Shown here piece after piece: positions 3,543-32,823 of a stretch of 32,823 nucleotides of DNA. Source of the DNA: a virus; the IMG/VR virus record IMGVR_UViG_3300036770_004592, positions 1 to 32,823 of that record; one strand, written 5' to 3'. The notes beneath the pieces were generated by a model that had not been told where the DNA came from, did not search any database, and saw nothing but the letters and a program-made list of their open reading frames with translations. Position 1 is the stretch's first letter. Every line of letters starts with the position of its first letter. Position numbers and translations under genes: made by a program.

Positions 3543-3713
3543 ATTTAGTTTTAGCAGACTACTAAATAATATCAAAGTGCCTGCTTAGCAGGGAACGCTT
3601 TTACCTTCGAACCTTAGGCCCGTTAGGGGAACCAAAAGTAGAAGTCAACATCATATAACCAAAATGTCGTAGACATTAATCTACAAACCTTAACAAATAG
3701 AAAAAACACTACA
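3543..3713 (+). promoter_or_regulatory. Intergenic promoter and structured leader of the capsid gene
   Basis: This 171-bp stretch carries no ORF. ACTAAATA (3561-3568) is followed by a predicted start near 3574, giving a leader of about 140 nt. It is the only motif copy upstream of a protein gene that is not close to a start codon. The leader can form a hairpin CCTGC-TTA-GCAGG (3580-3592) near its 5' end and another, GTAGA/TCTAC (3669-3684), about 30 nt before the capsid ATG; between them lies a G/C-rich stretch. The leader may stabilise the abundant capsid mRNA or control its translation (inference). Confidence 0.55.
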
Positions 3714-4952: not shown

Positions 4953-5522
4953 ATGACTGGGATTTATATTATTACCAACAGGCATACATTAAAGAGATAT
5001 GTTGGGCAATCAAAGAATATAGAGACAAGATTAAAATCACATTGGAATTCTCTATTGAAAAACAAACATATAAATCCTTACTTACAAAGTGCCTATAACA
5101 AATATGGTAAGGATGCTTTCATTGAGACTATTGTAGAATGCTCGGAGGTTGAACTTACTGCTATGGAGCAGTATTTTATTGATGTATGGTGGAAAACTGG
5201 TATTCTATACAATATTTGTAGAAAAGCAGAAGTCCCTCCAGCCTCCTGGGGCAGAAAGTATAAACACTCTGAAGAAACTAGAGCTAAGATGAGCGCTGAT
5301 CGCAAGGGCAGAATTCCTTGGAATAAGGGTAAAAAAATGCCTCCAGGTACTGGAGCAAAAGTAAGTGCTAAAAATAAGGGCAGAACTGCTTGGAATAAAA
5401 GTAATGCTTGGGATAGGGTTGATGAGATTAAAAAAGATAGACTTGCTGGATATACCCATTTAATGCTCTGTAAGAAATATAAATGTGGTTCTGAAACTAT
5501 AGGCAAAATCTGCCTCTCATAA
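4953..5522 (+). CDS. GIY-YIG homing endonuclease with NUMOD3 and C-terminal HTH
   Basis: A 189-aa free-standing homing endonuclease of the T4 Seg type. The nuclease domain occupies about 1-90: GIY at 3-5, YVG at 16-18, Arg26, His30, Glu72 (metal-binding Glu, in MEQYFIDVWW), and YNI near 86-88. After it come two NUMOD3-like DNA-binding repeats (about 98-150; SEETRAKMS and GRIPWNKGKK, then GRTAWNK), and a helix-turn-helix-like end (about 150-189). That end resembles the end of the second GIY-YIG protein at 26173-26661. It sits between the capsid operon terminator and the tail genes with its own promoter-like motif. It would cut an allelic site in competitor genomes and spread by repair. Confidence 0.92.
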   Translation: MTGIYIITNRHTLKRYVGQSKNIETRLKSHWNSLLKNKHINPYLQSAYNKYGKDAFIETIVECSEVELTAMEQYFIDVWWKTGILYNICRKAEVPPASWGRKYKHSEETRAKMSADRKGRIPWNKGKKMPPGTGAKVSAKNKGRTAWNKSNAWDRVDEIKKDRLAGYTHLMLCKKYKCGSETIGKICLS

Positions 5523-26172: not shown

Positions 26173-26661
26173 TCATCTATTGGTAGCTTCCAGGATCCTC
26201 CAAACTGTTGTATATGATGCATTAAGTCGTGCTGCAATTTCTTTGAGCTTAAGGCCTTCTTCATATCGCAAACGGCGAATTTCCGATATTCTTTCCCATG
26301 CATCAGAAGATCTTTCCGAAATCCTTTTCCTGTCAGTGTAGTAGACGTTATAGACATTATAATCTGTATTTATGTCAATAGTGACTTTTTCGACGGAACT
26401 TAGGTATTCTTTCATAACAGGCCAATATGTAATGGTAAATTTATTTATTCCGTGCTTTTTATAATCGGAGAGCATTTCCTTAGGAAATTTAACTCCCCGT
26501 CTTAAGCAGGACTTGCTATACATAATGCGCGTATAAAGTTCTTTCGAACTTCCAACATAAACTCTACCATTTTTATTATTTTTAATAATGTAAACAGCCG
26601 AGATTTTCGGTAAAGTCTTATAGTTTACCGCTGACAAGGGGATTGTAGTTGTGTTATTCAT
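26173..26661 (-). CDS. GIY-YIG family homing endonuclease with C-terminal HTH
   Basis: A 162-aa leftward gene. The nuclease core is at about 19-105: AVYIIKN (22-28, in place of GIY), YVG at 35-37, Arg45, then a helix and the segment DYKKHGINKFTITYW. The expected catalytic Glu is probably Glu84 in YLSSVEKVTIDINTDYNVYN, with the Asn of the family at NVYN. Residues about 118-162 are a helix-turn-helix of the type EGLKLKEIAARLNASYTTVW. This end resembles that of the endonuclease at 4953-5522 (AWxRxxEIxxxR...), so the two share a DNA-binding module. The start has a CTAAATA motif upstream on the same strand. Confidence 0.88.
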   Translation of the reverse strand: MNNTTTIPLSAVNYKTLPKISAVYIIKNNKNGRVYVGSSKELYTRIMYSKSCLRRGVKFPKEMLSDYKKHGINKFTITYWPVMKEYLSSVEKVTIDINTDYNVYNVYYTDRKRISERSSDAWERISEIRRLRYEEGLKLKEIAARLNASYTTVWRILEATNR

Positions 26662-27487: not shown

Positions 27488-27501
27488 AACTAAATATATT
27501 T
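27488..27501 (+). promoter_or_regulatory. Promoter-like motif AACTAAATA before predicted RNA 1
   Basis: AACTAAATA (27488-27496) with predicted start at G27502. No ORF follows; a hairpin begins at the predicted first base. Confidence 0.6.
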
Positions 27502-27600
27502 GACAACAGAGGGATCTTTTGTCGTTATTCATATTCACTCACTAGATTACCCTCTATCAGTTTTTCCGCTACCCTTGGAGCTGATAGAGGGTTTTTTTTT
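27502..27600 (+). ncRNA. Predicted small structured phage RNA 1
   Basis: About 95 nt between a promoter-like motif and a strong terminator, with no ORF on this strand that fits it. The 5' end folds as GACAA/TTGTC (27502-27506 with 27519-27523) with an inner AGA/TCT pair and a GGGA (GNRA-type) loop. A single-stranded part with ATTCACTCA follows, then the terminator CCCTCTATCAG/CTGATAGAGGG (27550-27560 with 27581-27591) and nine T. Plan and some sequence are shared with RNA 2 and RNA 3. The target is unknown. Confidence 0.6.
27550..27600 (+). terminator. Rho-independent terminator of predicted RNA 1
   Basis: An 11-bp perfect stem (CCCTCTATCAG with CTGATAGAGGG), 20-nt loop, then nine T. Confidence 0.92.
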
Positions 27601-27630
27601 GTTTTTTACTAGAATAATTCTACCTATTTG

Positions 27631-27643
27631 CTTAAATAAGTAT
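27631..27643 (+). promoter_or_regulatory. Promoter-like motif CTTAAATA before predicted RNA 2
   Basis: CTTAAATA (27631-27638), spacer AGTAT, predicted start at A27644. The five spacer bases and following A look just like those before start codons elsewhere, although no ATG follows. Confidence 0.58.
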
Positions 27644-27744
27644 AGCTGAGGATATCTCAGTATTAGTTTAGGGGGCGCAGTCAATCAACTCTGTTTTATA
27701 ATTTAGTTTGATGCTCATTCACTCAGACTGCGCCCCCTTTTTTT
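27644..27744 (+). ncRNA. Predicted small structured phage RNA 2
   Basis: About 100 nt with no credible ORF. A 5' hairpin CTGAG-GATAT-CTCAG (27646-27660) is followed by a long stem GGGGGCGCAGTC/GACTGCGCCCCC (27671-27682 with 27726-27737). Inside its 43-nt loop an ATCAA/TTGAT pair can form, and ATTCACTCA, also present in RNA 1, is exposed. Seven T end it. CTCAG in the loop (27722-27726) repeats the 3' arm of the 5' hairpin, so an alternative pairing is possible. Confidence 0.6.
27671..27744 (+). terminator. Rho-independent terminator-like stem of predicted RNA 2
   Basis: A 12-bp perfect GC-rich stem followed by seven T. The 43-nt loop is unusually large for a simple terminator, which supports a structured RNA. 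Confidence 0.8.
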
Positions 27745-27754
27745 GTTCATTGCT

Positions 27755-27860
27755 AAAACATGGCAACATATAAACTTCTCTCTCTACTGTAGATTGATTG
27801 AATTGAAAAAAAAACATGGCAACATATAACTCCTCTCTCTATCTAAAATTGAAAAAAAAA
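27755..27860 (+). repeat. Two tandem direct repeats of about 56 and 50 bp with A-tracts
   Basis: Both units begin AAAACATGGCAACATATAA (27755 and 27811), continue with a CT-rich run (CTCTCTCTA) and end in ATTGAAAAAAAAA. Unit 2 is a few bases shorter in the middle. They lie in a non-coding zone between RNA 2 and the polymerase-like gene. Iteron-like direct repeats with A-tracts are typical of replication origins or of packaging or regulatory sites. Each unit opens with an in-frame ATG (see the finding on the tiny ORF). Confidence 0.85.
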
Positions 27861-27894: not shown

Positions 27895-27910
27895 GACTAA
27901 ATAGATGTGA
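27895..27910 (+). promoter_or_regulatory. Promoter-like motif GACTAAATA before the polymerase-like gene
   Basis: GACTAAATA (27895-27903) with a 7-nt spacer to ATG 27911. An ATG at 27905 is followed at once by TGA and is not used. Confidence 0.66.
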
Positions 27911-28921
27911 ATGAACATTAAACCCAGAATCATAAACAGAGATATAATACAGTTTTCTTGTGGTAAGAAAAAAAGAGAAGAGCTTTGTGGATCACTTGGC
28001 TCCAAGTTAGGAGTAGCATTTTTTGATATTGCTAACTTGTCAGATAGCTATATGTCCTCAAATATATGTGGTGAGAATAGGAAACCCTATTGTAAAACAG
28101 CAAATATAGCACCTAGAGACTTATTTGCCTTCTATCAATATACAGAACACCCTGAGGATGAAAGGGTTATGATTAAAGAGGATTTAACTGGTCCTAGTAA
28201 AAGCAAGAATAAAAAGAATTGGAAGTTTATATGGGTCAAGCCTATTACTGAAACTGATGAAGAGATCCTCAATATCCTAATTACCTGGTTGACAAATAAG
28301 TTCCAAGATGAACTCACCGAAGGTGAATTTAATTACAGCAATACATCTTGTGATAGAAAGTATCATCCATTACAAAATATGCCCTCTACTGTTAGAAATG
28401 GAGTGTTCAAATCCAAGGGCTATGATGGTAAGTTTGATGTTAAATCCTGCTTACCCACTACAATGGGTCAAGTTGCAGGTGAAGAATGGGATGTAAATAC
28501 TGTAGATTACATAGCAGAACAGCTAGGAGTTGAGAGAAAACTTGCAAAATTAGCAGTAAACAGTTCATTCTATGGAGCAACATTAACAGCATTTTCATCT
28601 GTTCTGAGATTACTTGACTTCAATGATGCTTGTACAGTACAACTTATAAGAGTTAGCCCTATTTTTATGAACACCAAGAAAAAGATTAATAGAATCAGAA
28701 AAGCAACAGGGCTAGATAAGGATTTTAATGCTTATTTTAGAGTAGAGAGACAAATAATAGAGTGCATTGAGGCATATATCAAAGCAAAAGGTGGTAGAGT
28801 TTTCACAATCCATGATGGAGGCTATTGTGATATAGAACTTGATAGGGCTGATTTAGAAGAACATGTGTTTAACCAAACAGGCTTTAGATTACAAATAGAA
28901 GTTTCACCCAATGACTACTGA
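27911..28921 (+). CDS. Miniature polymerase-like protein (family A DNA polymerase / single-subunit RNA polymerase motifs)
   Basis: A 336-aa protein with the palm/fingers motifs of the Pol I-T7 RNA polymerase superfamily in order. CDRKYHPLQNMP at 147-158 resembles the pre-A element (GR...PNLQNIP of Pol I). FDVKSC at 175-180 gives the motif A Asp176. ERKLAKLAVNSSFYG at 208-222 is an exact R-x3-K-x7-YG O-helix (Arg209, Lys213, Tyr221, Gly222). FTIHDGGYCD at 298-307 is motif C with Asp302, ending 34 residues later as in Pol I. The residues after HD are GG, not Glu (Pol I) or Ser-Phe (T7). It is far shorter than T7 RNAP (883 aa) or a Klenow-size core (about 600 aa), and I see no exonuclease or T7-like promoter-binding domain. 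It might be the phage transcriptase, a replicase or a primer-making enzyme. Activity is unproven. Confidence 0.75.
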   Translation: MNIKPRIINRDIIQFSCGKKKREELCGSLGSKLGVAFFDIANLSDSYMSSNICGENRKPYCKTANIAPRDLFAFYQYTEHPEDERVMIKEDLTGPSKSKNKKNWKFIWVKPITETDEEILNILITWLTNKFQDELTEGEFNYSNTSCDRKYHPLQNMPSTVRNGVFKSKGYDGKFDVKSCLPTTMGQVAGEEWDVNTVDYIAEQLGVERKLAKLAVNSSFYGATLTAFSSVLRLLDFNDACTVQLIRVSPIFMNTKKKINRIRKATGLDKDFNAYFRVERQIIECIEAYIKAKGGRVFTIHDGGYCDIELDRADLEEHVFNQTGFRLQIEVSPNDY

Positions 28922-30175: not shown

Positions 30176-30187
30176 CTAAATAAAAAC
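30174..30187 (+). promoter_or_regulatory. Promoter-like motif GACTAAATA before predicted RNA 3
   Basis: GACTAAATA (30174-30182) overlaps the holin-like gene's stop codon (TGACTAAATA). The predicted start is G30188, the first base of a perfect hairpin. Confidence 0.62.
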
Positions 30188-30290
30188 GGATAAGAGCTGT
30201 TTCTCTTATCCGGTATTAAGCATAAGTTCTATCAAATCGTTACTCATATAGGGACCCTCATCAGCAAGTCTGATGAGGGTTTCTCATTTT
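30188..30290 (+). ncRNA. Predicted small structured phage RNA 3
   Basis: About 100 nt without a credible ORF. The predicted first base opens a perfect 9-bp hairpin GGATAAGAG/CTCTTATCC (30188-30196 with 30203-30211). A 42-nt unpaired stretch follows, then the terminator ACCCTCATCAG/CTGATGAGGGT (30254-30264 with 30270-30280) and TTCTCATTTT. The terminator stem resembles that of RNA 1 (CCCTC..ATCAG). It separates the lysis run from the terminase operon. Confidence 0.6.
30254..30290 (+). terminator. Rho-independent terminator before the terminase genes
   Basis: An 11-bp perfect stem with a 5-nt loop followed by a T-rich tract (TTTCTCATTTT). It ends RNA 3 and any read-through from the holin-like gene. 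Confidence 0.85.
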
Positions 30291-32383: not shown

Positions 32384-32823
32384 ATGGCGACCGCACTTTC
32401 ACAAAATGTTCAAAATAGGCTTGAGTTTACCCCGGTAACACCTATGCAGACTGCTACCCCGGCTAAACCAGCTAAGAAGCCTAAGCCAGCTAAAGCAGCG
32501 ACTCAATCTACTACACTTAATAAAGGTTATCCTATGCCGGACTTTGGCGAAGAAAATCTAGTAACTATAAGTAGAGGTTTTCGTGTTCCCTGGTATAAGC
32601 TTGACGAAGATAATCCTATTTTCAGACAAAATATGGCTGAGCTTGCTAGACTTCAGAGACGAGCTAATAGACAGGAAGAAAGAGAAACAGTAAGAACTGA
32701 AAATAAGCCAATGACTGCTACTGTTCTTGGTGAGGGTGGTACTCCCGCTGAAACAGCTCCTACTACCGCTACCACTAACAAGCCGACTAAAACTACTACT
32801 ACCAGCACAGGCCCAGGGACAGG
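32384..32823 (+). CDS. 5' part of the Lys/Pro/Thr-rich protein; continues at base 254 of the window
   Basis: ATG 32384 begins a frame that runs off the window end. Since 32571-32823 equals 1-253, it continues to the stop at 480-482. The N-terminus includes a Lys/Pro/Ala segment (AKPAKKPKPAKAA) and then ENLVTISRGFRVPWYKLDED, the best candidate for a folded part. The function is unknown; the TerL-portal position suggests packaging or head assembly. Confidence 0.82.
   Translation, partial: MATALSQNVQNRLEFTPVTPMQTATPAKPAKKPKPAKAATQSTTLNKGYPMPDFGEENLVTISRGFRVPWYKLDEDNPIFRQNMAELARLQRRANRQEERETVRTENKPMTATVLGEGGTPAETAPTTATTNKPTKTTTTSTGPGT
32571..32823 (+). repeat. Copy of bases 1-253 (end overlap of the contig)
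   Basis: All 253 bases match the window start except G126/A32696. This shows that the sequence closes on itself, with a unit length of 32,570 bp. It could be an assembly overlap of a permuted genome or a true terminal repeat; raw reads would tell. Confidence 0.97.

Follow-up and report, generated by a model that had tools for sequence, protein, structure and literature searches.

Positions 27502–27744 of a phage genome hold two tandem units of about 102 nt, each preceded by a TAAATA box. Do these units specify small RNAs, and on what would such RNAs act? The analysis covered the window, a 32,823-nt stretch of DNA at positions 1–32,823 of IMG/VR record IMGVR_UViG_3300036770_004592. To our knowledge, few small RNAs are known from uncultured, probably lytic environmental phages. 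The last 253 bases of the window (32571–32823) match its first 253 (1–253) with one mismatch, and genes for connector, scaffold, capsid, tail and terminase are present. In view of the end overlap, the window probably represents a complete podovirus genome. The closest named kin according to capsid and head–tail connector are pelagiphages of the HTVC010P type, at approximately 30–39% protein identity (capsid at most 39%, connector at most 31%).

Both units start at a fixed distance from their box, and we examined how this spacing is used in the window. There are 12 TAAATA sites exactly 5 nt before an ATG, while any other spacing between 0 and 15 nt occurs at four sites at most. The overall frequency of TAAATA is not above that in shuffled sequences; it is the placement which is non-random. 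A promoter profile was trained on the 12 TAAATA-5nt-ATG sites and gave scores of 12.1 for the first unit (RNA1), 11.4 for the second (RNA2) and 12.5 for a third unit described below (RNA3). Every match scoring above 12 is a gene start, RNA1 or RNA3, with RNA2 just under this value. The relatives that could be recovered, short contigs around the capsid gene only (L002 and L003), retain the box and the 5-nt spacing. By these sequence features, TAAATA plus 5 nt is the phage's own promoter, of a late type.

In the T4 family, the late box is located about one helical turn ahead of the transcription start, and in Aeh1 it carries a/gC at −13/−12 instead of TA (PMC2988020). The Aeh1 variant combined with the T4 box gives (a/g)C-TAAATA at −13 to −6, which resembles ACTAAATA of the window with +1 six bases past TAAATA. 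Relative to the transcription start that we infer, the window promoters have a T4-type late box (TATAAATA or (a/g)CTAAATA at −13 to −6). As T4-family numbering places +1 on the A of the ATG, most mRNAs of this phage are predicted to be leaderless. The late promoters of T4 and Aeh1 depend on the sigma factor gp55; in contrast, the window belongs to a podovirus in which a profile search did not detect gp55, and its +1 on the ATG would give leaderless mRNAs. A T7-type RNA polymerase was not identified by profile search of the window either. Identical box and spacing were found in three uncultured large phages (G001, G002 and G003, with 7, 5 and 22 sites, and 0 at a spacing of 8 nt) and at four sites in HTVC008M, all of which encode gp55. 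HTVC010P, unlike the window phage, is devoid of CTAAATA-5nt-ATG sites. If correct, the promoter rule would allow transcript starts to be predicted both for this group of podoviruses and for many large uncultured phages with a late sigma factor. Such T4-late-type leaderless promoters precede many virion genes of the window podovirus, in which no gp55 was detected.

The features of the units are compiled in Table 1.

Table 1. Coordinates of the predicted RNAs, their promoters and related features in the window.
Feature	Position	Strand	Evidence
RNA1 promoter (ACTAAATA, 5 nt ahead of predicted start)	27489..27496	+	Box and spacing as in 12 gene starts
RNA1, predicted noncoding RNA, ~100 nt	27502..27604	+	Fold −33.7 kcal/mol, z −5.1; architecture scan
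RNA1 5' hairpin, starts at +1 (GACAA.../...TTGTC)	27502..27523	+	
ATTCACTCA element, RNA1	27533..27541	+	
RNA1 terminator (12-bp stem, T-run)	27549..27600	+	
RNA2 promoter box (TAAATA); predicted +1 = 27644	27633..27638	+	
RNA2, predicted antisense RNA, ~100 nt	27644..27744	+	Fold −36.3 kcal/mol, z −5.4; architecture scan
RNA2 5' hairpin, starts at +2 (GCTGAG/CTCAGT)	27645..27661	+	
RNA2 closing stem and terminator (13-bp stem, 43-nt loop, T-run)	27670..27745	+	
RNA2 antisense segment (GTTTGATGCTCATTCAC)	27706..27722	+	16/17 nt paired with 27907–27923
ATTCACTCA element, RNA2	27717..27725	+	
Promoter box, predicted target gene	27898..27903	+	
Predicted RNA2 target, across ATG at 27911	27907..27923	+	
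Gene for a 336-aa protein; at motif level only, possibly a very divergent single-subunit polymerase	27911..28921	+	
RNA3 promoter box (GACTAAATA context; TAAATA)	30177..30182	+	
RNA3, third unit, same plan as RNA1/RNA2	30188..30290	+	Fold −36.7 kcal/mol, z −6.6
Promoter and leader of the capsid gene, RNA begins with hairpin	3563..3713	+	Three compensatory pair changes versus L002

The layout given in the original prediction was confirmed: two tandem units with TAAATA, a hairpin within 2 nt of each predicted start and a shared 9-mer, ATTCACTCA. The spacer after TAAATA is exactly 5 nt (box at 27491–27496 for RNA1, hence a predicted +1 at 27502). Both terminators have perfect stems and T-runs, but the description as GC-rich applies to RNA2 only (13 bp, 27670–27682 with 27726–27738); in RNA1, only half of the 12 pairs (27549–27560 with 27581–27592, 20-nt loop) are G–C. 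The 9-mer occupies an unpaired stretch, between the two hairpins in RNA1 versus within the long terminator loop in RNA2. The two plans are therefore similar, not identical. Both RNAs fold better than all of 200 shuffles. As had been proposed, no reading frame fits. RNA1 is devoid of ATG, and the sole ATG of RNA2 opens a frame of 20 codons which runs through its terminator; judged by these frames, neither RNA codes for a credible protein.

We scanned 2,111 TAAATA sites, located in the window and in some 210 further loci, for a strict arrangement in which the box is followed after 5 nt by a hairpin starting within 2 nt and by a strong terminator no more than 170 nt away. Only RNA1 and RNA2 passed. 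Five scrambled control motifs with 2,000–2,600 sites apiece gave 0–2 passes each, namely RNA1 itself displaced by 2 nt and otherwise one L080 site counted under two motifs. The architecture of RNA1 and RNA2 is beyond chance. Searches against Rfam revealed no family above the gathering score, and permissive limits gave only chance-level matches. Being short and noncoding with a promoter and terminator of their own, RNA1 and RNA2 agree on sequence alone with small RNAs of the OOP/sar type.

RNA3 was missed by the strict scan because of its weaker T-run. A 9-bp hairpin begins exactly at +1, 5 nt past TAAATA, and a 15-bp terminator stem follows at 30250–30284, downstream of the 29939–30175 gene and upstream of the promoter for the terminase small subunit. 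The proposed small-RNA family is thus supported, with three members instead of two.

The gene 10 leader of T7 is a known case of a capsid transcript that opens with a hairpin at its extreme 5' terminus, and further stem-loops that stabilise RNA from the 5' end have been described. In the window, only the capsid mRNA has a long leader, which is structured and comprises 140 nt (3574–3713). Its hairpin at +1 (3574–3601) is kept in L002 with three double changes and zero broken pairs, as seen in this one sequence pair. Such conservation supports the predicted start site and the rule that leadered transcripts open with a hairpin; for RNA1–3 it provides no direct evidence. Compared with T7, the same device would in the window phage also cap three noncoding RNAs.

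A possible function was indicated by RNA2 and the adjacent gene at 27911. Segment GTTTGATGCTCATTCAC can pair with 17 nt across the start codon (16 paired, including one G–U; −20.6 kcal/mol), an energy matched by 15 of 40,000 dinucleotide shuffles. This gene start is the best for RNA2 among 35, with p about 0.04 after correction for approximately 105 RNA-by-gene combinations, and the site ranks fourth by energy in the genome, self-pairing excluded. The immediate vicinity of RNA2 and gene 27911 adds to the credibility of the pairing. With an mRNA start at 27909, positions 27907–27908 would be outside the transcript and 15 of the 17 target positions would remain; for 27909–27936 alone, 13 of 40,000 shuffles were as good. 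The pairing segment sits in a loop which may itself be partly folded.

Short phage RNAs pairing with phage mRNA are exemplified by lambda OOP (against cII) and P22 sar (against ant) (PMC12197685). RNA2 is likewise short, phage-encoded and able to pair with an mRNA of the phage. Whereas OOP and sar come from the DNA strand opposite the one that encodes their targets, RNA2 is on the same strand as gene 27911 and upstream of it. Its pairing is imperfect, located at a translation start and better than in shuffles, as for trans-encoded small RNAs. RNA2 may thus have an antisense mode of action without being cis-encoded.

We therefore favour, tentatively and with a probability of about 0.45, the following reading. 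Three noncoding RNAs of about 100 nt would be made from the late-type promoter of the phage (TAAATA plus 5 nt) and would be stable, each guarded by a 5' hairpin at one end and a 3' terminator stem at the other. The loop of RNA2 would pair with the start of gene 27911 and cover the start codon, most likely as an antisense repressor. The leader predicted for the mRNA of this gene measures only some 2 nt, and the ribosome would therefore have to bind the 5'-terminal AUG itself; covering the AUG should then block translation. RNA2 thus probably switches off its neighbouring gene. RNA1 and RNA3 are probably sisters of RNA2 that act on other targets. Double-hairpin-capped RNAs on a phage late promoter, one of them aimed at a near-leaderless start codon, would constitute a simple RNA brake.

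The suggestion that the units encode antisense regulators is thus supported for RNA2; RNA1 and RNA3 lack a convincing target. The best gene start for RNA1, our best guess for its target, is that of the minus-strand gene 26173–26661 (start at 26661), which is reached by 0.8% of shuffles but was picked from 35. For RNA3, comparison with the gene starts and the genome did not reveal a convincing target. General pairing of the RNAs with all leaderless starts was rejected, as the mean start percentile was about 0.5. The idea that the shared 9-mer is the pairing seed was not supported. Apart from the two RNAs, ATTCACTCA does not occur on either strand of the window, a search of the phage for TGAGTGAAT gave no further match, and the RNA2 segment predicted to pair contains only part of the 9-mer.

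Could the RNAs instead be decoys for a protein such as a host ribonuclease, RNA polymerase or an RNA chaperone? The missing mRNA targets of RNA1 and RNA3 would fit, and ATTCACTCA in RNA1/RNA2 and TCGTTAYTCATAT in RNA1/RNA3 would then be the binding site. Both words are short, and their sharing exceeds chance only mildly. A shared 9-mer is found in 11% of shuffles of the whole RNAs and in 1.2% for the middle stretches; TCGTTAYTCATAT (13 nt, one mismatch) is reached by less than 1% of whole-RNA shuffles and its 11-nt core by 2.8% for the middles. Moreover, there is no element that all three RNAs share, and RNA2 has a good antisense match. We consider decoys quite unlikely.

The units might also be mere punctuation, i.e. 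operon-insulating terminators each with a nearby late promoter, the RNAs being functionless by-products. The location of RNA1 and RNA2 between operons agrees with this, as does that of the RNA3 terminator between the 29939–30175 gene and the terminase promoter. Ending one operon does not, however, require two complete tandem promoter–hairpin–terminator units, a 5' hairpin at +1 is useless in a terminator, and the loops closed by the RNA1 and RNA2 stems are unusually long; this explanation is unlikely, but deserves to be kept in mind. That TAAATA, hairpins and T-runs merely came together by chance in AT-rich DNA is very improbable. The background frequency of TAAATA speaks for such a coincidence, and hairpins as strong as the 5' hairpin of RNA1 begin at 7% of positions, but the strict arrangement is absent from about 2,000 other TAAATA sites and almost absent from the control motifs, and three units with fold z below −5 occur within 33 kb.

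Under the antisense reading, gene 27911 would be the target of RNA2. Family searches with the 336-aa protein gave no match. It contains an R-x3-K-x7-YG spacing and, later, IHDGG, two features reminiscent of motifs B and C in polymerases of the T7 type. With a six-member profile of T7 RNA polymerases it was the top-scoring product among window ORFs of at least 100 aa, aligned at motif B, at a probability of 1.6%. An AlphaFold model computed without relatives was unusable (pLDDT 37). We regard the resemblance to a very reduced single-subunit (A-family) polymerase palm as a lead and not as an assignment; were the protein a polymerase, RNA2 would act as a brake on it. As T4-type late promoters precede most of the virion genes and the three RNAs and no late sigma was found, the phage might also borrow this factor from a co-infecting T4-like phage in a satellite-like manner, with RNA2 silencing gene 27911 at the onset of the helper's late programme. 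This we regard as a long shot.

To find the locus in other genomes, we searched IMG/VR for close relatives of the terminase, connector, protease and 336-aa genes; none carried the RNA1–3 region. Among GTDB genomes, no kin of the 336-aa gene with the RNA locus was found, and a pattern search of viral contigs for the RNA2 terminator stem gave no match. A broader capsid search yielded 80 loci, all of at most 45% identity past L002 and without a clear excess in promoter spacing.

Between RNA2 and the next gene, at 27757–27860, there are two imperfect direct repeats (ACATGGCAACATATAA...CTCTCTCTA...TTGAAAAAAAAA). The minus-strand gene 26173–26661 codes for a GIY-YIG domain fused to a helix-turn-helix, with an additional weak match to sigma-70 region 4. 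Another GIY-YIG-like gene, preceded by a TAAATA promoter of its own, is located at 4953–5522. As it is missing from L002 at a clean junction, it looks like an inserted homing endonuclease.
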